The position numbers were made by a program, and so were the translations under genes. Below the pieces are notes generated by a model. That model was not told the DNA's origin. It saw only the letters and a program-made list of their open reading frames with translations, and did no database searches. A stretch of 45,485 nucleotides of DNA, from contig JACQCA010000023.1 of the NCBI GenBank assembly GCA_016201865.1, positions 1 through 45,485 of the forward strand. Reading direction: 5' to 3'. This document shows, piece after piece, positions 14,254 through 21,711 of the stretch. Source of the stretch: Nitrospirota bacterium. Its GTDB lineage: Bacteria; Nitrospirota; Nitrospiria; JACQBZ01. The stretch's first letter is position 1. Each line of letters begins with the position of its first letter.

Positions 14254-16020
14254 TCATAGTTCCGGCGGGATTTTGAGGTCGGGGCGATTTTTCCCGAAAG
14301 AGATTCTCTTGATCAATTTAAATCCGGCCTCGCTGTGGCATATCTCGCAGCGTTCTCCCAGTTCGCCTTCATGATAGTCGTCCTTTCGATGGCACGCGAC
14401 GCACATGCGCGAGGTTTTCTGAACATAGAGCTGCTTGATGTGACATTGTTCGCATTTCAAGCCGAGATGTTTTTGCACAAGCGCATAGCCGGTTTCCTTT
14501 GAATGATCAAAGTCGTCCCGTTTCCAGGTCTTTGCGGTATGGCAGGCTTCGCATTTTTTACCGAAATGTCCTTTGTGGTAGTCGTCTTTGATGTGACAGT
14601 CATTGCACACGGATGAGGTGTCCTTGAAAAGCGGCGTCTTATGACAGTCCGAACAGCGGACATCCTTATGTTTGTCCAGGAGCGGAAAACTCGTTTTTTG
14701 ATGATCGAACTTCTGAACGTCCTTCCAGGCCTTTTCCGTATGACACTTCTCGCAGGCATCGCCCAATTTCCCCTTGTGTTTATCATCCTTCTGATGACAG
14801 GTGGAGCATTGAGTCGGAATCTTGTAGGGTTCCTTAACGTGGCATTTCGCACAGGAAACATCCACATGCTTTCCCGTGAGCGGATACTCCGTTTTTGAAT
14901 GGTCGAATCGGATTCGCTTCCAATTCTCGGCCGTATGGCAACGGTCGCACTCCTTCCCCAGTTTACCCTTGTGCTTATCCTCCTTTTTATGGCATTCAAC
15001 GCAGGTCTTGGGTGTGGTTTTCAATGCGGCAGTTGTATGACACTTCAGGCAATCCGTTTTCTGATGCTTTCCGATTAAGGCAAACCGGGTTTTATCATGG
15101 TCGAACAGGATCTCCTTCCAGTCCTTGACCGTGTGACATTGCGAGCATTCAGGTCCGAGAATGCCCTTATGCCGGTCCACTTTTTTATGGCATTCAATGC
15201 AGGTCTTCGGCGTTTCCCGCAGCTGAGAGGTTTTATGACACTTGAGACAGTCAACCTTTTGATGGCTTCCCTCCAATTTAAATCGGGTCTTGTCATGGTC
15301 AAAGAGGATCTCCTTCCAATCCTTTGCCGTATGACAGCTCTCGCACTGCTTGCCGAGAGTCCCCTTGTGCTTATCCTTTTTGAGATGGCACCCCACGCAG
15401 GCGATGGGCGTGGACTTGAAATTGTCCGAGGCGTGGCATTTTTCACACGCCACCGGACGGTGTTTTCCTTCCAGCGGAAATTTCGTCTTCGTGTGGTCGA
15501 AACTGATCTTGGACCAGGCATCCGAATTATGACAGCGCTCGCAGCTCTTTCCCAACGCTCCCTTGTGCTTATCTTCTTTGAGATGACAGGAATGGCAGTC
15601 GTGAAGCGTATCGCGGAATTTCGGTTTTTGGTGGCATCCGTCGCATTTTGCGGTTTGATGCTTTCCGGTCAGTTCAAATTTGGTTTTTTTATGGTCGAAA
15701 TGCCCTGAATCAAACTGAATCAGATTGGCCTCACGCCCCTTATGCTCCGTGTGACAGGTCTCGCAGCGGGCGGCGTCGATGCTTCCGTGAAAGCCGATCT
15801 TTTGTTCAACGTCGCCTTTAACTTCCTTGTGGCACGCAAGACATTTATCAAAAAAAACCTTCTGGACGAGATTGTGACAGTCCAGACATTGACCCTCATA
15901 TTTCTCATGAAGCCTGGATACGTCACCGGGCATCACTCCCTTCAAGATATCAAGGGCGTCTGCGATTCCCCAGGTTGTGAGCAGAAATATCAAAACAGCC
16001 GGGCCGGATCTTTTCCACAT
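14254..16020 (-). CDS. 24-haem modular cytochrome c
   Basis: 588 residues with an N-terminal export signal (VLIFLLTTWGIADA, about residues 9-22) and 24 CXXCH motifs by count. After three haems in the first 90 or so residues come seven repeats of about 66 residues. Each repeat has three haems in the pattern FDHxKTxFxLxGKHxxxxCxxCH, TPxxCxxCHxKxDxHKGxLG, CxxCHTxxxWK. The spaced His residues in each module can serve as sixth ligands, as in class III / c7-type cytochromes. Periplasmic or outer-face electron wire by inference. It is the last gene of the unit 12-haem cytochrome, beta-barrel protein, membrane cytochrome b, 24-haem cytochrome. The start is ATG 16020 with GAGAAG upstream. Confidence 0.92.
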   Translation of the reverse strand: MWKRSGPAVLIFLLTTWGIADALDILKGVMPGDVSRLHEKYEGQCLDCHNLVQKVFFDKCLACHKEVKGDVEQKIGFHGSIDAARCETCHTEHKGREANLIQFDSGHFDHKKTKFELTGKHQTAKCDGCHQKPKFRDTLHDCHSCHLKEDKHKGALGKSCERCHNSDAWSKISFDHTKTKFPLEGKHRPVACEKCHASDNFKSTPIACVGCHLKKDKHKGTLGKQCESCHTAKDWKEILFDHDKTRFKLEGSHQKVDCLKCHKTSQLRETPKTCIECHKKVDRHKGILGPECSQCHTVKDWKEILFDHDKTRFALIGKHQKTDCLKCHTTAALKTTPKTCVECHKKEDKHKGKLGKECDRCHTAENWKRIRFDHSKTEYPLTGKHVDVSCAKCHVKEPYKIPTQCSTCHQKDDKHKGKLGDACEKCHTEKAWKDVQKFDHQKTSFPLLDKHKDVRCSDCHKTPLFKDTSSVCNDCHIKDDYHKGHFGKKCEACHTAKTWKRDDFDHSKETGYALVQKHLGLKCEQCHIKQLYVQKTSRMCVACHRKDDYHEGELGERCEICHSEAGFKLIKRISFGKNRPDLKIPPEL

Positions 16021-16051
16021 CAGGCTTCTCTACACAGTCTGAACAACGCTT

Positions 16052-16879
16052 CTAAAATATTAATACGGCGGCAATATGAACGATCAACGTAAAGGCGAGA
16101 ATCCAAATGAACGGAACATGAAGCTTGTGCCAGTAAGCGAACAGTTTTGTCGTTGTTTCGAGAGCCGATATTTTTTTCTCAAGATTGATCCGTTTTATCA
16201 GAACGGTCTCAAACGAGCCCTGATTCTCCATTTTGTTAAAGGCCGGCATCCCGCCTTGTTGTCGGAGAAGCCGGCCGATCTGACGCTTGAGTTTTTTCTC
16301 CAGCCGGTCTAATCGAACCATCAAGAAGAATGATCTCAGGGGTCCGTGAGATTTTTGCTTATCTCGAAGCTCAAAAAATATTCGGATTGTTCCAAGGATC
16401 GTTTGTGATTCGGAAAAACGCTGGGAGATTTGCTGGTCCAGTTGATCAATTTCCTGAGTGATCTCTTTTAATGTCGCACGCTCTCCTGAGAGGGAGAACT
16501 GAAAATGCCGGTAGATGTATCGACCGATCACGCCGCTGGCCACGACGATCAACATCACATAAAATGCAATGGCTGCGTTGGGAGATTTGACCATAAAGCC
16601 GGTGTGATACACGACCAACAACGGCCCGAGAATGCAAAGCGTAATGTGGACATCCAACCAGACGCTCATTTTGCCCAGGCTTCTTAACACCTTGATCCTT
16701 TTTCTTAAGGCATACAAAAGGGCGCCGAACACCATCATCACGGAGCCGATGATCCCGAGTAGAAGCGCGACAAACGATTTCGGGGAATAGGGATGCCATG
16801 AGAAATAGATCGGCAAGACGATCGCCAGACCGCATCCTAAAACGAGTAAAACCAGCTTGGATTCCGCTCTTTTTTCCAT
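16052..16879 (-). CDS. Dihaem membrane cytochrome b-type protein
   Basis: 275 residues with about five membrane segments (roughly 9-28, 35-58, 72-95, 102-122, 255-275) and a cytoplasmic or periplasmic helical stretch between the fourth and fifth. Two H-x13-H pairs are placed as in four-helix-bundle dihaem cytochromes b: H78/H92 (WLDVHITL ... VVYHTGF) and H254/H268 (WHKLHVPF ... TLIVHIAAV). This suggests transmembrane electron transfer between the quinone pool and periplasmic multihaem cytochromes encoded on either side of it. No exact family is recognised. A leader of about 75 nt separates it from the beta-barrel gene upstream. Confidence 0.7.
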   Translation of the reverse strand: MEKRAESKLVLLVLGCGLAIVLPIYFSWHPYSPKSFVALLLGIIGSVMMVFGALLYALRKRIKVLRSLGKMSVWLDVHITLCILGPLLVVYHTGFMVKSPNAAIAFYVMLIVVASGVIGRYIYRHFQFSLSGERATLKEITQEIDQLDQQISQRFSESQTILGTIRIFFELRDKQKSHGPLRSFFLMVRLDRLEKKLKRQIGRLLRQQGGMPAFNKMENQGSFETVLIKRINLEKKISALETTTKLFAYWHKLHVPFIWILAFTLIVHIAAVLIF

Positions 16880-16954
16880 CGATCTCTTCGACGGCGAAGT
16901 GTATAATACTATCCGGTCTAAATCAACCGATCCTGTCTTTGAAATTTTAAAACC

Positions 16955-18766
16955 TCAAAATGGAATGGTGACCGTGGTTCGGGTTTCCACGGTCTTCTGT
17001 GTGTCGCCGGCCGTGATGTTCTTGTCAATCGAATAGTCCGCATCGAGGCCGATCGAAGTGCCGTTTGTGAAAGAATAACTCAGCGTGAATCCGGGGATCC
17101 ACCGCATGGATCGGCTGTCCGTTGTGATAAATTCGATGCGTTCCCAACGACACCGCAACGACGCCTGGGTGCCGATGCCCCAAAATTTTGAGAAAGTGCT
17201 GGTCACTGTCGTTGTCTTAAAATCGGTCGCCGGCAGGTAGAGAAAAAGAACTGTCCAACTCTCGGACCATTTAAGCCCGTTCCGCTCGCTAAAAAAAACC
17301 GAGTAGCGGTCGGATCTCTTTCCTATCTTCCCATCGATAAAATCAATGGCCTCACCGATGACGTGTGAGTACCGGAAGTCGCCGCGCCAAACCTTCGTGA
17401 AATCGATCGTTGTGCCCAGCCGGAGTTCCCGGGAATCCGTGGTGTTGTCCAGGGCCAAGTTTTGGATATCCTTCCGAGTCAGCGTTTGTCGCAGGACATC
17501 CAGTGACGTGATCGGCGGGTCGGCCGCCGACAGGGAAGGATCCAGCAACGCCGTGTGATAGTCCAAAAACGGGTTTTTTCGATATTCGACAGCGACGGAA
17601 TACAGAACAATCGAGTAGCGGTACTCCAGGCTGAGTAATTCATCATTAAATTTTTTAAAATCCAGGTCGTAGTCCACAATGGATGAAATGTTAAGGGGTT
17701 CATTCAACCAGTACCCATTTATTCCGACAGCCCTGCGCGTTAAAAAGCTGATGTCTAAACTCGGGATTGACTCGAATTCCTCCGTATAATAGATTTTTCC
17801 TCCAAGATGATAGAAGTCATAAAGCGAGAGGTAAGAGTCGTAAAAGAGGCGATCATGTTGGATGCGGATTTTATTTTTATCAAAGGTGTTGACGGGATAC
17901 CCGACGCTCGAATTGAAACCGAGTGTATTGAAGGGCCGGACGGCAACGGCAATACCGTCAAAACGAGTGAACAGCGTATTCCCCGATGCCGGTTGGCGCC
18001 CGAGTCGAATATCCAAGACGGATCGCGGGTCATTCCATTCGGCATACAGTTTTGATAGCCGGTATCTTGTGTCTTCAGAATCCAGGTAATTATGCGAATA
18101 CATTCCCGATAGGTAAATTTTAATATCCCCGGCCGCCGGTCTTTTCCAACGGAGATCCAAGAACTCGCTCAAGCGGCTTTGGACCGGGGTCGAGAGTTTT
18201 GGCGAGGTCTGAAGATCATAGACGTATTCGGTCGTCAACCCGCCGGCCAATTTACCGAATCGTGAGGTTTCGGCCGGTCGCCGTAATGGTAGATCCCGCA
18301 CAATCGGCGCGGGCGGCTCTTTTGCGGAGGGGCTGTTGCTCGTGAAGGCCAACGTTTTTGTTAAAGCAGACAATCTCTTCTTGGTTTCGGTTGTATGTGG
18401 GCTCGATGGATAATTTTTTAAGAAGAAGTTATATTGTTGTTGCGCCTCATTTCGTTTTCCCTGTTTTTCCGCAATCTGTGCAAGATACCATTGGGCTTCT
18501 TCCAGCTCGGGGGACCCTCTTTGCGTATCAATGATTTTATTGAATGCCGATTTGGATTTTTCCAGATTGCCGTTCCGAAAGGCCTCTATCCCTTCTGTGA
18601 GTGTGGCCGAATGACCCCCGTCCGGTTTGAGCATAGAGTTGTTTTTGCTTAATGAACAGCCGGACTCCGTTAAAAAAAAGGATAGCACGATCAAAGAGGT
18701 CGTTAGTCGTACAAGAATGCATGCCCATCGTCGTTGTGGATAATTAAAATTGTTTGTAATCAGCAT
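16955..18766 (-). CDS. TPR-containing outer-membrane beta-barrel protein (porin of a porin-cytochrome conduit)
   Basis: About 603 residues from ATG 18766. The frame is open to 18988, but that extension overlaps the upstream cytochrome and has no signal peptide. The N-terminus has a signal sequence ending LSFFLTESGCS, possibly a lipoprotein with an imperfect lipobox. Residues about 60-130 are TPR-like (AFRNGNLEKSKSAFNKII, AQWYLAQIAEKQGKRNEA). The remainder is alternating amphipathic beta-strands with aromatic girdles, ending in TTVTIPF, a C-terminal Phe typical of outer-membrane barrels. No CXXCH. It overlaps the end of the 12-haem cytochrome gene by 23 nt. By analogy with MtrB/PCC porins it probably sheathes a cytochrome across the outer membrane (inference). 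Confidence 0.75.
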   Translation of the reverse strand: MLITNNFNYPQRRWACILVRLTTSLIVLSFFLTESGCSLSKNNSMLKPDGGHSATLTEGIEAFRNGNLEKSKSAFNKIIDTQRGSPELEEAQWYLAQIAEKQGKRNEAQQQYNFFLKNYPSSPHTTETKKRLSALTKTLAFTSNSPSAKEPPAPIVRDLPLRRPAETSRFGKLAGGLTTEYVYDLQTSPKLSTPVQSRLSEFLDLRWKRPAAGDIKIYLSGMYSHNYLDSEDTRYRLSKLYAEWNDPRSVLDIRLGRQPASGNTLFTRFDGIAVAVRPFNTLGFNSSVGYPVNTFDKNKIRIQHDRLFYDSYLSLYDFYHLGGKIYYTEEFESIPSLDISFLTRRAVGINGYWLNEPLNISSIVDYDLDFKKFNDELLSLEYRYSIVLYSVAVEYRKNPFLDYHTALLDPSLSAADPPITSLDVLRQTLTRKDIQNLALDNTTDSRELRLGTTIDFTKVWRGDFRYSHVIGEAIDFIDGKIGKRSDRYSVFFSERNGLKWSESWTVLFLYLPATDFKTTTVTSTFSKFWGIGTQASLRCRWERIEFITTDSRSMRWIPGFTLSYSFTNGTSIGLDADYSIDKNITAGDTQKTVETRTTVTIPF

Positions 18767-19814
18767 GCCTGTGACAGTTCGCGCACATCGCATTAGCTTG
18801 CAAGGAGTCTGCCATGGAGGTAAACGGCTGCTTGGTTGCCGGATTAATCTTATGCGCATCCGGCCCGGGATATTTATAGTCACGGGTATGGCAGTTTGCG
18901 CAGAAACCATACTGTGTGCCATCCCGAAAAAGAGCCGCGGGAACCGTTTGGGGATGACATGCCGAACAAGGAAGTACACTGTGGGCACCGATTAATTTTG
19001 GATTATCATGGTTTACCAGTGTTGCCGGGATCCAGCCGATCGTTTTATGACATGTGTCGCATTGAAGGGTTGTGACGAGATGACCCTGCGGTTTTCCCGT
19101 CGCCTTCTGGCTGTTATGACAGGTGGAGCATTGGCCGGTTGCACTGGCATCATGAATATAGATGGCCGGGACCCATCCGGTCGTCTTATGGCACGTATCG
19201 CATTGCGATGTGGTGGTGATGTGGTTGGACGGTTTCCCCGTCGCCTTCTGGCCGTTGTGACAGGTGGAGCATTGGCCGGTGGCACTGGCATCATGAATAT
19301 AGGTTGCCGGGACCCATCCGGTCGTCTTATGACACGTGTCGCACTGCGAGGTTGTGGTGATATGGTTAGATGGTTTTCCCGTTGCCTTCTGCCCGTTGTG
19401 ACAGGTGGAGCATTGGCCGGTTGCGCTTGCATCATGGCGAAATACTGCGGGAGACCAAGCAGATACGGTATGGCATTCATCGCAGCGCTGTGTGGTCATG
19501 ACATGATTTGAAGGCCTTCCGTACGCAACCTGACCGTTGTGACAAGTTTCACAGGTATTCGGAACGCCCTTATACTGTCCTCCTAAATGGCACTGGGAGC
19601 AGTTCAATCTTTTATGGGCCCCCAGAAGTGGAAAAGAGGTTGCGTCGTGGTTAAAGTTATCGAACAATTCACTGGATGCTGCAACTCTTTGGGATTCACC
19701 TCTCGCCTCAGACCCGATCACGCGATAAATGAGCAGAGTCATCCCTAAAATAATACTGATGCCGGCCGCGGCCAATAAGACGGCAGAGCCGGCTCTCCTC
19801 ATGATGAATGGCAT
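18744..19814 (-). CDS. 12-haem cytochrome c, membrane-anchored
   Basis: 356 residues. An N-terminal hydrophobic segment (about 10-32) without a clear cleavage site suggests an inner-membrane anchor with a periplasmic body. Twelve CXXCH motifs. The central part is a tandem array of 47-residue two-haem units (CSTCHNGQKATGKPSNH, then TTSQCDTCHKTTGWVPA). The C-terminal block has FRDGTQYGFCANCHTRDYK and AMCANCHRHADYK. Its N- and C-terminal blocks are paralogous to those of the 15-haem protein upstream. The start is ATG 19814 with GGAGGAAGGAG upstream. Expression is predicted to be gated by the riboswitch at 19857-19948. Confidence 0.92.
   Translation of the reverse strand: MPFIMRRAGSAVLLAAAGISIILGMTLLIYRVIGSEARGESQRVAASSELFDNFNHDATSFPLLGAHKRLNCSQCHLGGQYKGVPNTCETCHNGQVAYGRPSNHVMTTQRCDECHTVSAWSPAVFRHDASATGQCSTCHNGQKATGKPSNHITTTSQCDTCHKTTGWVPATYIHDASATGQCSTCHNGQKATGKPSNHITTTSQCDTCHKTTGWVPAIYIHDASATGQCSTCHNSQKATGKPQGHLVTTLQCDTCHKTIGWIPATLVNHDNPKLIGAHSVLPCSACHPQTVPAALFRDGTQYGFCANCHTRDYKYPGPDAHKINPATKQPFTSMADSLQANAMCANCHRHADYKQF
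19119..19423 (-). repeat. 141-nt tandem coding repeat in the 12-haem cytochrome
   Basis: The string AGGTGGAGCATTGGCCGG recurs at 19121, 19262 and 19403, a strict 141-nt (47-codon) period. The copies are nearly identical at DNA level, and each encodes two haem-binding sites. Such recent internal amplification is prone to expansion or contraction and to misassembly. Confidence 0.85.
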
Positions 19815-19836: not shown

Positions 19837-19868
19837 AAAAAAGCCACCAAAGGACTCCTTTGGCGGCT
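19837..19868 (-). terminator. Riboswitch-controlled intrinsic terminator (copy 1)
   Basis: The minus strand forms AGCCGCCAAAG / CTTTGGTGGCT followed by six T's (19842-19837). Its ascending arm contains CAAAGG (19862-19857), the 3' strand of aptamer helix P1, so P1 and the terminator cannot form together. The 12-haem cytochrome starts 22 nt downstream of the T-run. Confidence 0.85.
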
Positions 19869-19948
19869 CGGCGGGCATATCACCTCTTTAGGATTTAGCC
19901 CCGTTGCACTGCGTCCCCATCTTTCGATGGGTTTGCTCTGAGCAAAGG
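19857..19948 (-). promoter_or_regulatory. GEMM-I riboswitch upstream of the 12-haem cytochrome (cGAMP-type signature)
   Basis: A 92-nt aptamer. P1 is CCTTTG (19948-19943) with CAAAGG (19862-19857). The conserved J1/2 and P2 start is CAGAGCAAACC. P2 is CCCATC-GAAA-GATGGG with the GAAA tetraloop. Next is the invariant GGGACGCA, and P3 begins with ACGGGGCTAAA and closes with TATGCCC. These are the diagnostic features of the GEMM-I (c-di-GMP-I) class. The residue aligned by hand with G20 of the Vc2 aptamer is A, the feature of GEMM-Ib RNAs that prefer 3',3'-cGAMP in Geobacter. Ligand-stabilised P1 would block the overlapping terminator, giving an ON switch. Confidence 0.9.
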
Positions 19949-19992
19949 TGATGGAACTGATTCATTAAGACTAAATCATACCACTATTGACT

Positions 19993-20020
19993 ACTTTAAC
20001 AGATTTTATTACGCTGTCAA
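19993..20020 (-). promoter_or_regulatory. Promoter of riboswitch copy 1
   Basis: The minus strand has TTGACA at 20020-20015, a 16-nt spacer and TAAAGT at 19998-19993. It is homologous to the promoter of copy 2; both share the string AAAATCTGTTA at the end of the spacer. Transcription would start near 19986, about 38 nt before P1. Confidence 0.65.
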
Positions 20021-20168
20021 GTCGATCTATCCCCCAATAGAACGTAATGACTAAGGATATCCAGACATCCAATCTCAAATCACCTGGTCAATTCCTATTG
20101 TAGGAGCTCGCGTCGCCCCCTCCGGCTGGAGCCAGATTTTAAATCTGTCACCTCTTTTTGAAGCTCTC

Positions 20169-20202
20169 CAATCCCTGCCTGCCGGCAGTCAGGCAGGGAT
20201 TG
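20169..20202. repeat. 13-bp perfect inverted repeat between the two cytochrome genes
   Basis: CAATCCCTGCCTG at 20169-20181 and its exact complement at 20190-20202 flank an 8-nt loop (CCGGCAGT). It lies 10 nt downstream of the 15-haem cytochrome stop. There is no T-run on either strand, so it may act as a transcript-end stabiliser or be an intergenic palindromic repeat. The rest of 20021-20168 shows only a short AGATTTTAAATCT inverted repeat and no gene. Confidence 0.6.
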
Positions 20203-20211
20203 CGTGGATTA

Positions 20212-21562
20212 TTAGAATCCTCTATAGTCTGAATGCTTATGACAATTGGCGCACATCGCATTGGTTCGCAAGGCATCAGTCAGCGAAGTCCCACAGGTGG
20301 GACAGGCGTTCTTATGAGCCCCCTCGGAGAGCTTATAGTCTCTCGTATGGCAGTTCGCGCAGAAACCATACATTGTTCCGTCCCGATAAAAAACCGAGGG
20401 GGGCAATTGGGGGTGACAGGCCTTACATTCCAGGGTGCTATGGGCGCCGATTAATCTCGGATTATTATGATTTACCAGGATCGCCGGGATCCATCCGGTC
20501 GTCTTGTGACAGGTGTCGCACTGTGACAGGGTGCTGATATGATTGGATGGCTTGGAAACCGCTCCCACATTATTCCCGCTGTAGTGGCAGGTTGAACAGA
20601 AGGGGACAATCCCCGAGTGATTCATCTTGACGGTGGTAAACGAGGTGGTGCCGGAGTGACAGCTGCTGCAGTCTTGCCCAGTCAGGTTGTTATGAACCAC
20701 GTCGCTTTTCGGCGCTAATCCGCTTCCCATATGATTGGATGGCTTGTAAACCGCTCCCACTGCATTTCCCTGGTAATGGCAGGTTGAACAGAAGGGGACA
20801 ATCCCCGAGTGATTCATCTTGACGGTGGTAAACGAGGTGGTGCCGGAGTGACAGCTGCTGCAGTCTTGCCCAGTCAGGTTGTTATGAACCACGTCGCTTT
20901 TCGGCGCTAATCCGCTTAGTAGTCGTTCCGGCATGACACAGGTTGCACTCCGATGACGTTCCCATATGATTGGATGGCTTCCCTTTCGCCATTTCTCCAT
21001 TGTGACAGGTGGAGCACTGGCCGGCGGTTTTGGCGTCATGAACAAAAGTGGCCGGGGTCCAGCCGGTCATTTTATGACAGGTGTCACACTGCGCTCTGGT
21101 GGTGATATGGTTCTGCGGCTTGCCTTTTGCCTTCTGGTCGTTGTGGCAGGTGGAGCATTGGCCGGTTGCTAAAATCATCTTATGATCGAAGGTTGAAGGA
21201 GACCAGGCAGACACGGAATGACAGAGATTACAGCTCTGAGTCGTCATTATATGATTCTTGGATTTCCCATAAGCGATCTGATCATTATGGCAATTTTCAC
21301 AGGTTCTTGGGGCGCTTTTATACTGCCCTCCCAAATGACACAGGGAACATTTCAGCCCTCGATGCGCACCAAGCAGCGGAAACGATGTCGCATCATGATT
21401 AAAGCTCACGGGGAGTTCGCTCTCAGCAGATTTATTTAGGAATCCGCCTTTTGTTTGTGAATCAGCCGTTTCATAGGACAAAAGGACCGTCCCAAAGATC
21501 ATGATGCCGACAATCATGATTAAAGCAACAGAGCCCGGTTTTCTGATGAGATCTCGAATCAT
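20212..21562 (-). pseudogene. 15-haem cytochrome c, reading frame broken once
   Basis: Paralogue of the 12-haem protein. From ATG 21562 (GGAGGG 8 nt upstream) the frame gives an N-terminal membrane segment (about 10-30), FNHDATSFPLLGAH and seven CXXCH motifs, to ECNLCHAGTTT. It then loses frame near 20918-20930. The continuation in another frame (from about 20925 to 20212) has eight more CXXCH motifs and the same C-terminal block (YGFCANCHTRDYK, AMCANCHKHSDY). The total 1351 nt is one more than a multiple of three. The break sits exactly at the end of the second copy of a 141-nt perfect repeat. This could be real decay, phase variation, or an assembly or basecalling error. A CPTCG is a degenerate non-haem site. 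Confidence 0.85.
20585..20917 (-). repeat. Two perfect 141-nt direct repeats (period 192 nt) in the 15-haem cytochrome
   Basis: Positions 20585-20725 and 20777-20917 are identical by base-by-base comparison. Each encodes GLAPKSDVVHNNLTGQDCSS-CH and CSTCHY, with two haem sites. The repeat offset of 192 nt equals 64 codons, so duplication itself is in frame; the frameshift is immediately outside the second copy. Confidence 0.9.
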
Positions 21563-21597
21563 GTTGTTTTCCCTCCATTTAAACAAAAAAATTAAAC

Positions 21598-21631
21598 AAA
21601 AAAAGCCGCCAAAGGATTTCCTCTGGCGGCT
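21598..21631 (-). terminator. Riboswitch-controlled intrinsic terminator (copy 2)
   Basis: The minus strand forms AGCCGCCAGAGGA / TCCTTTGGCGGCT, followed by seven T's (21604-21598). The ascending arm includes CAGAGG (21625-21620), the 3' strand of P1. Same architecture as copy 1, with sequence differences that keep the stem. Confidence 0.85.
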
Positions 21632-21711
21632 CGGCGGGCATGTCCCGGATTCGGAATTTAGCCCCGTTGCACTGCGTCCCCATCTTTCGATGGGTTTGCT
21701 CTGAGCAAAGG
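21620..21711 (-). promoter_or_regulatory. GEMM-I riboswitch upstream of the 15-haem cytochrome (cGAMP-type signature)
   Basis: A 92-nt aptamer, the same length as copy 1 and identical to it from P1's 5' strand through P2, GGGACGCAGTGCAACGGGGCTAAAT. P1 is CCTTTG (21711-21706) with CAGAGG (21625-21620), using one G-U pair. The P3 tip differs but keeps pairing: CCG-AATC-CGG here, CCT-AAAG-AGG in copy 1. That covariation supports a conserved RNA fold. It also carries A at the Vc2 G20 position. Predicted ON switch through the overlapping terminator. Confidence 0.9.

Follow-up and report, generated by a model that had tools for sequence, protein, structure and literature searches.

Two GEMM-I riboswitches of predicted cGAMP type ahead of multihaem cytochrome genes in a Nitrospirota genome

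The window, i.e. the whole stretch of 45,485 nucleotides that was analysed, is contig C94 of a 2.47-Mb Nitrospirota genome in 97 contigs (G000), and it carries two GEMM-I riboswitch aptamers, both with an adenine at the position of G20 in the Vc2 c-di-GMP aptamer. Each of them lies in the 5′ leader of a multihaem cytochrome gene, on the same strand as the gene and followed first by a terminator and then by the cytochrome ORF. It appears quite likely that both RNAs are cGAMP-type (GEMM-Ib) ON riboswitches, that the same cell produces the cGAMP and that the cytochromes serve extracellular electron exchange; within this explanation, the aptamers, A20, the overlapping terminators, the cytochromes, the Hypr signature residues and the phylum are shown directly, and we infer the ligand, the direction of switching in cells, the products of the enzymes and the function of the conduit. 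The sequence-only reading was correct in naming Nitrospirota. Judging from sequence, another phylum probably has a signalling circuit that is known best from Geobacter. The features concerned, all on the minus strand, are the following:

21620–21711, minus strand: GEMM-I aptamer 1, A20; RF01051 match over 21710–21622, the P1 ends adding 1–2 nt
21598–21632, minus strand: intrinsic terminator 1, GAGCCGCCAGAGG-AAAT-CCTTTGGCGGC-TTTTTTT; its 5′ arm overlaps the P1 3′ strand and the aptamer end
20212–21562, minus strand: multihaem c-type cytochrome with 7+8 CXXCH motifs; ORFs 20882–21586 and 20212–21045, from translation and Pfam Cytochrome_C7
19857–19948, minus strand: GEMM-I aptamer 2, A20; RF01051 match over 19947–19859
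19837–19869, minus strand: intrinsic terminator 2, GAGCCGCCAAAGG-AGT-CCTTTGGTGGC-TTTTTT; its 5′ arm overlaps the P1 3′ strand
18744–19814, minus strand: 12-haem c-type cytochrome, 12 CXXCH motifs, Cytochrome_C7; similarity to DmsE-type decahaem cytochromes weak, below cut-off
16955–18766, minus strand: TPR plus putative porin-like outer-membrane beta-barrel; TPR_6, BamD-like TPR; order conserved in relatives
16052–16879, minus strand: membrane protein with His-containing hydrophobic segments, cytochrome-b-like by inspection only
14254–16020, minus strand: 24-haem c-type cytochrome, 24 CXXCH motifs; Cytochrome_C7, Cytochrom_c3_2

The sequence-only reading had proposed two paralogous GEMM-I RNAs, and the Rfam covariance model RF01051 (GEMM-I) bore this out, matching both over its full length (model positions 1–87) with 60.6 bits (E = 1.6e-9) for aptamer 1 and 61.1 bits (E = 1.2e-9) for aptamer 2, the cut-off being 35 bits; no other Rfam family was matched in the window. 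The two 92-nt stretches are identical at 83 of 92 positions, all differences save one being confined to the P3 tip. In the covariance-model alignment, both aptamers have A, not G, at model position 11, an unpaired base that precedes the G-C pair opening P2 and is equivalent to Vc2 position 20, so that the assignment previously made by hand alignment was upheld by the model search recommended as its check. The same alignment retains the ligand-stacking A (the A47 equivalent, within GGGACGC) in both RNAs, and the C92 equivalent is likewise retained as part of the invariant CC opening the 3′ strand of P1. The covariation claimed for the P3 tip stood only in part: in the register of the model, pairing is complete in the 21.6-kb copy but not in the 19.9-kb copy, the tip of the latter being either mismatched in that register or folded as a shorter, shifted hairpin. 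As a separate observation, the genome has nine GEMM-I RNAs, and in four of them (L012:3972-4058, L014:38-132, L015:3188-3266 and L016:9346-9446) the A47 position is taken by C or U, with GCAAAC altered; the first of the four lies ahead of genes resembling a Csu-type pilus cluster. A 6S RNA (L009:1873-2058, 112 bits) adjoins a GEMM-I leader on the opposite strand.

Concerning the expression platform, the terminator is present in the minimum-free-energy fold of each leader (z of −4.3 and −3.8). A leader can form either the aptamer or the terminator but not both, and ON switches are therefore expected; from the sequence and the modelled folds, both RNAs should act as such by aptamer–terminator competition. 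The cGAMP riboswitch of G. metallireducens pilM is an ON switch with mutually exclusive aptamer and terminator, the latter sequestering C75 (PMC9262584). Since the window leaders match this described architecture, they most likely, by analogy, operate in the same mode. With no ligand, the nascent leader would fold the terminator, GAGCCGCCAAAGG...CCTTTGGYGGC-T(6-7), which would use up the 3′ strand of P1 together with the ligand-pairing C at the Vc2 C92 position, and transcription would stop. With 3′,3′-cGAMP in the junction, A20 would contact the adenine, A47 would stack between the ligand bases and C92 would pair with the guanine; P1 would then be locked, the terminator could not form and the cytochrome genes would be transcribed.

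This platform recurs in the phylum. A model built from 34 aptamers gave 129 distinct GEMM-I leaders across Nitrospirota, with position 20 occupied by A in 78, G in 49, C in one and T in one (the T being a weak match); it should be noted that the ratio of 78:49 is not a frequency, because the set was partly picked by the A20 pattern. The subclass of the window RNAs takes in 51 of the 78 A20 leaders, including one (L063) that is a misfit of the sorting rule, and nearly all of the 51 have a complementary 3′ arm of the terminator followed by a T run. Four of the six P1 pairs are matched in this subclass more often than in nearly every column shuffle. A terminator overlapping the aptamer was found in none of the 49 G20 leaders of the set. 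A third A20 aptamer of the window genome (L013:4113-4213, contig C83) has an overlapping hairpin and is likewise of the ON type; no clear gene follows it on the same strand for ~2 kb downstream.

When CAGNGCAAAC was searched for with base 20 left open, A occupied that position in 45 of the 50 matches in Nitrospirota and G in the remaining five, so A is the rule in the subclass, though not an absolute one. The J1/2 of the window RNAs reads GCUCAGA and lies two positions off the Vc2 junction, which we take to be GCACAGG. It is more like Vc2 carrying G20A than like the junction that the crystal structure of a Geobacter cGAMP aptamer (4YAZ) is reported to have. Because of its near-equality with Vc2, a mixed cGAMP/c-di-GMP specificity is possible. 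The ligand contacts of Vc2 have been listed (PMC7288161). As for A20 itself, the single exchange A20G switches the Gmet_0970 riboswitch from cGAMP to c-di-GMP, and the pgcA riboswitch favours cGAMP by ~1200-fold, whereas the OmcST leader responds to both messengers (PMC6456294); for a Desulfuromonas A20 aptamer, affinity for cGAMP is described as gained and that for c-di-GMP as perhaps slightly weakened (PMC9481103). It is conceivable, if improbable, that the window RNAs are ON switches responding to c-di-GMP or to both dinucleotides, with A20 only relaxing specificity and the physiological input being c-di-GMP or the sum of both. The Vc2-like J1/2 would suit such behaviour, as would an RNA of similar core with G20 in another genome of the phylum (G157:C51), the excess of Asp-type over Ser-type GGDEF domains in the window genome (11 vs 3) and the A20-type RNAs of mixed affinity already known (PMC6456294; PMC9481103); the prevalence of A among the CAGNGCAAAC matches, the flip of selectivity in Gmet_0970 and the synthases described below argue against it. 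On the sequence as it stands, we infer that the window RNAs prefer cGAMP.

Other leaders present the two bases side by side. The window genome has two aptamers sharing 89 of 92 positions that carry G20 (L010:3130-3221, contig C62) and A20 (L011:9376-9467, contig C18), respectively; their platforms are near-identical, each leader is positioned ahead of a lipoprotein-like gene, and the pair lends itself, within one genome, to a natural test of how a single base bears on messenger specificity. Seven leaders contain G20 and A20 aptamers in series (L136:193-447, L141:2331-2668, L131:65-415, L224:5733-6102, L228:7441-7796, L187:6467-6886 and L234:7598-7843), with G20 first in five and A20 first in two; judging from their sequence they could be two-messenger gates, and such mixed tandems are absent from the logic gates listed in the consulted passages of PMC9481103. 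One genome with two mixed tandems (G183) is related to Candidatus Manganitrophus GAC4 and is held distinct from it because their shared stretches are only ~65–75% identical; the subclass of the window RNAs is also present in GAC4, there as A20/A20 tandems (L202). That cGAMP is widespread in Nitrospirota and separated from c-di-GMP by one base in near-identical riboswitches, some leaders reading both, may be suggested from these sequences, if only as a tentative and somewhat doubtful generalization.

With regard to the source of the ligand, the genome contains 16 GGDEF loci, of which 11 have the canonical Asp, two Asn and three Ser at the signature position; given the 11 Asp-type domains, c-di-GMP is probably produced in this organism as well. 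A search for a Hypr-type GGDEF synthase, advised in the sequence-only reading, yielded two candidates by sequence, L025 and L033. The former (contig C40) is a GAF-GGDEF protein with the Hypr Ser (GHLMGSKVL...GGDEF), and its best match in the PDB is 6d9m, the domain of GacA from G. metallireducens (E = 4.9e-50), the next one scoring 47 bits lower. In the evolutionary tree, it belongs to a clade (support 99/96) consisting of GacA, the GacA-like Ser-type domains of Nitrospirota and three bin sequences, the latter from bins named Desulfuromonadales, Geobacteraceae and Proteobacteria. At the cross-dimer position of Tyr304, L025 has Phe and not Arg; an Arg here accompanies increased c-di-GMP, and cGAMP is seen with Tyr, Ser, Ala or Gln (PMC6456294). 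Since Pfam shows only GAF and GGDEF and no N-terminal receiver domain, a lack that bears on the input, the protein is named here GacA-like rather than GacA. The other candidate, L033 (contig C92), is a transmembrane sensor of the 4HB-HAMP-GGDDF type with the Hypr Ser, a layout with HAMP and GGDDF being described as well for GSU1937, which G. sulfurreducens has as its second cGAMP synthase (PMC8835794). Its homologues in the genomes of L204, L225 and L210 share 36–38% identity, the Ser being kept only in that of the L204 genome. The genome thus encodes, by sequence, relatives of both known cGAMP-making enzymes of Geobacter, their products being predicted, and cGAMP would come from the GAF-GGDEF GacA-like enzyme and probably also from the HAMP-GGDDF one. 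An FHA-GGDEF protein with the Ser (L030) was considered as GacA-like and rejected, since it branches apart from the GacA clade. An FHA-GGDEF protein with the Hypr Ser, recorded at L322:4603-5577 (contig C17), lies outside this clade and has matches in G163 and G233.

Across 246 Nitrospirota genomes, the strict A20 core pattern was found in 42, the GacA-like Ser pattern in 81 (a codon pattern that also lets through a few other residues) and the GSU1937-like Ser pattern in 31. Either Hypr-type enzyme occurs in 34 of the 42 A20 genomes vs 58 of the 204 others (Fisher p = 5e-10, confounded by descent); the remaining eight A20 genomes have no Hypr pattern. At the level of families the link is not significant (15 of 17 with A20 vs 14 of 21 without, p = 0.15), and permutation within families gave no signal (p = 0.85), so the association holds by genome and fails by family. 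Both family-level results would fit an association due only to shared ancestry, GEMM-I RNAs and Hypr enzymes being both frequent in the same deep lineages and the window RNAs sensing another ligand or none. This is regarded as very improbable, given that five large families (f2, f19, f20, f25 and f26; 119 genomes) have a single Hypr match and no A20 match, and that relatives from several phyla share a conserved core and platform, which would be unexpected for a dead relic. The subclass pattern was found outside Nitrospirota in Deltaproteobacteria (including Geobacteraceae and Desulfuromonadales), in Gemmatimonadota and in one gammaproteobacterium, as well as, in different surroundings, in Bacillota; A20 GEMM-I RNAs are therefore not peculiar to the window genome. 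Those of the window subclass in Gemmatimonadota (L188, L189, L191, L194, L197, L198, L201, L205, L214 and L234) in many cases have a GCCGCC terminator arm.

Where A20 leaders were read, multihaem genes (at least 12 motifs) as direct targets were confined to the family of the window genome. Two genomes of family f18 have a five-motif ORF further downstream of the A20 leader, and outside the family of the window genome the A20 leaders are mostly positioned ahead of genes for secreted or surface-type proteins. The generalization that A20 RNAs control cytochromes throughout Nitrospirota was rejected for this reason.

In the window itself, the multihaem cytochrome predicted behind each aptamer was recovered in both cases, with 12 CXXCH motifs in one and 7+8 in the other, each with Pfam Cytochrome_C7. 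The 15-haem gene behind the 21.6-kb aptamer has its frame broken near 20920, where a repeat of ~180 bp begins; the frameshift, placed within 20880–20960, either arose in assembly or is a real lesion. Behind the 19.9-kb aptamer, the order is 12-haem cytochrome, TPR/putative barrel protein, membrane protein and 24-haem cytochrome. The TPR/barrel protein consists of TPR repeats plus a long strand-rich region; AlphaFold without an alignment gave confidence in the TPR part only. Neither this protein nor the 24-haem cytochrome has a sequence relative in the PDB, the putative barrel matching no solved porin, and the membrane protein at 16052–16879 has no family match in Pfam or NCBIfam. The same cluster order is found in G163, a genome of the same family, with one A20 leader of the ON type ahead of a 14-haem cytochrome as the first gene; related clusters keep the order in part in G131 and G119. 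By its sequence, the layout of the 14254–19814 cluster resembles a porin-cytochrome electron conduit. The switches may, of course, work as proposed on cytochromes that serve periplasmic redox reactions and not extracellular electron transfer, which seems rather unlikely: the unmatched putative barrel, for which AlphaFold gave no confident model, and the weak similarity of the 24-haem protein to HmcA would fit it, but the recurrence in relatives of a multihaem cytochrome, a TPR/barrel-like protein, a membrane protein and a 24-haem cytochrome in porin-cytochrome-like order speaks against it. In the preferred reading, the output of the two switches would be the multihaem cytochromes and the conduit-like gene cluster, and through them extracellular electron exchange.

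No earlier report of a cGAMP riboswitch in Nitrospirota was found in the open literature, a listing of single hits in subscription papers being possible, and a text search of the literature with the core sequence of the window RNAs returned unrelated papers only. Geobacter has been called a genus especially rich in these RNAs, with novel ones expected elsewhere (PMC8835794). Most of the detailed descriptions of cGAMP riboswitch circuits come from Geobacter, in which metal respiration is under their control. With cytochrome targets, A20 switches of predicted ON type and relatives of both synthases in one genome, it becomes testable in Nitrospirota whether cGAMP is a general switch. The question is one of extracellular electron exchange and life on surfaces in a phylum that includes the manganese oxidiser Candidatus Manganitrophus.

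Compared with known systems, the window RNAs share with the Vc2 c-di-GMP-I riboswitch (GEMM-Ia) the fold, the core, a J1/2 of the form CxCAG and the equivalents of A47 and C92, and differ from it in having A where Vc2 has G at position 20. The gene cluster is similar to porin-cytochrome (PCC) clusters, including those of Candidatus Manganitrophus (PMC9040806), in that several multihaem cytochromes are found beside a possible outer-membrane barrel; unlike in those clusters, the barrel is putative, TPR repeats stand in front of it and there is a 24-haem component, and a relation to PCC_1 is not part of the likeness. L033 resembles the GSU1937 cyclase as a transmembrane sensor with HAMP, the signature Ser and GGDDF, the two being likened by described architecture and not by alignment. 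L025 has in common with GacA (GSU1658/Gmet_1914) the GGDEF clade, the signature Ser, GGDEF instead of GGEEF and the lack of Arg at the Tyr304 position, whereas its GAF-GGDEF architecture goes without the N-terminal receiver and its product is predicted. Finally, in relation to the Geobacter GEMM-Ib riboswitches (pilM/Gmet_0970 and pgcA/GSU1761), the window RNAs belong to Nitrospirota, have CUCAGA in J1/2 and not the junction reported for 4YAZ, and have a predicted ligand; they are alike in the RF01051 fold, in A20, in a terminator competing with P1, in the predicted ON mode and in the multihaem cytochromes encoded downstream.
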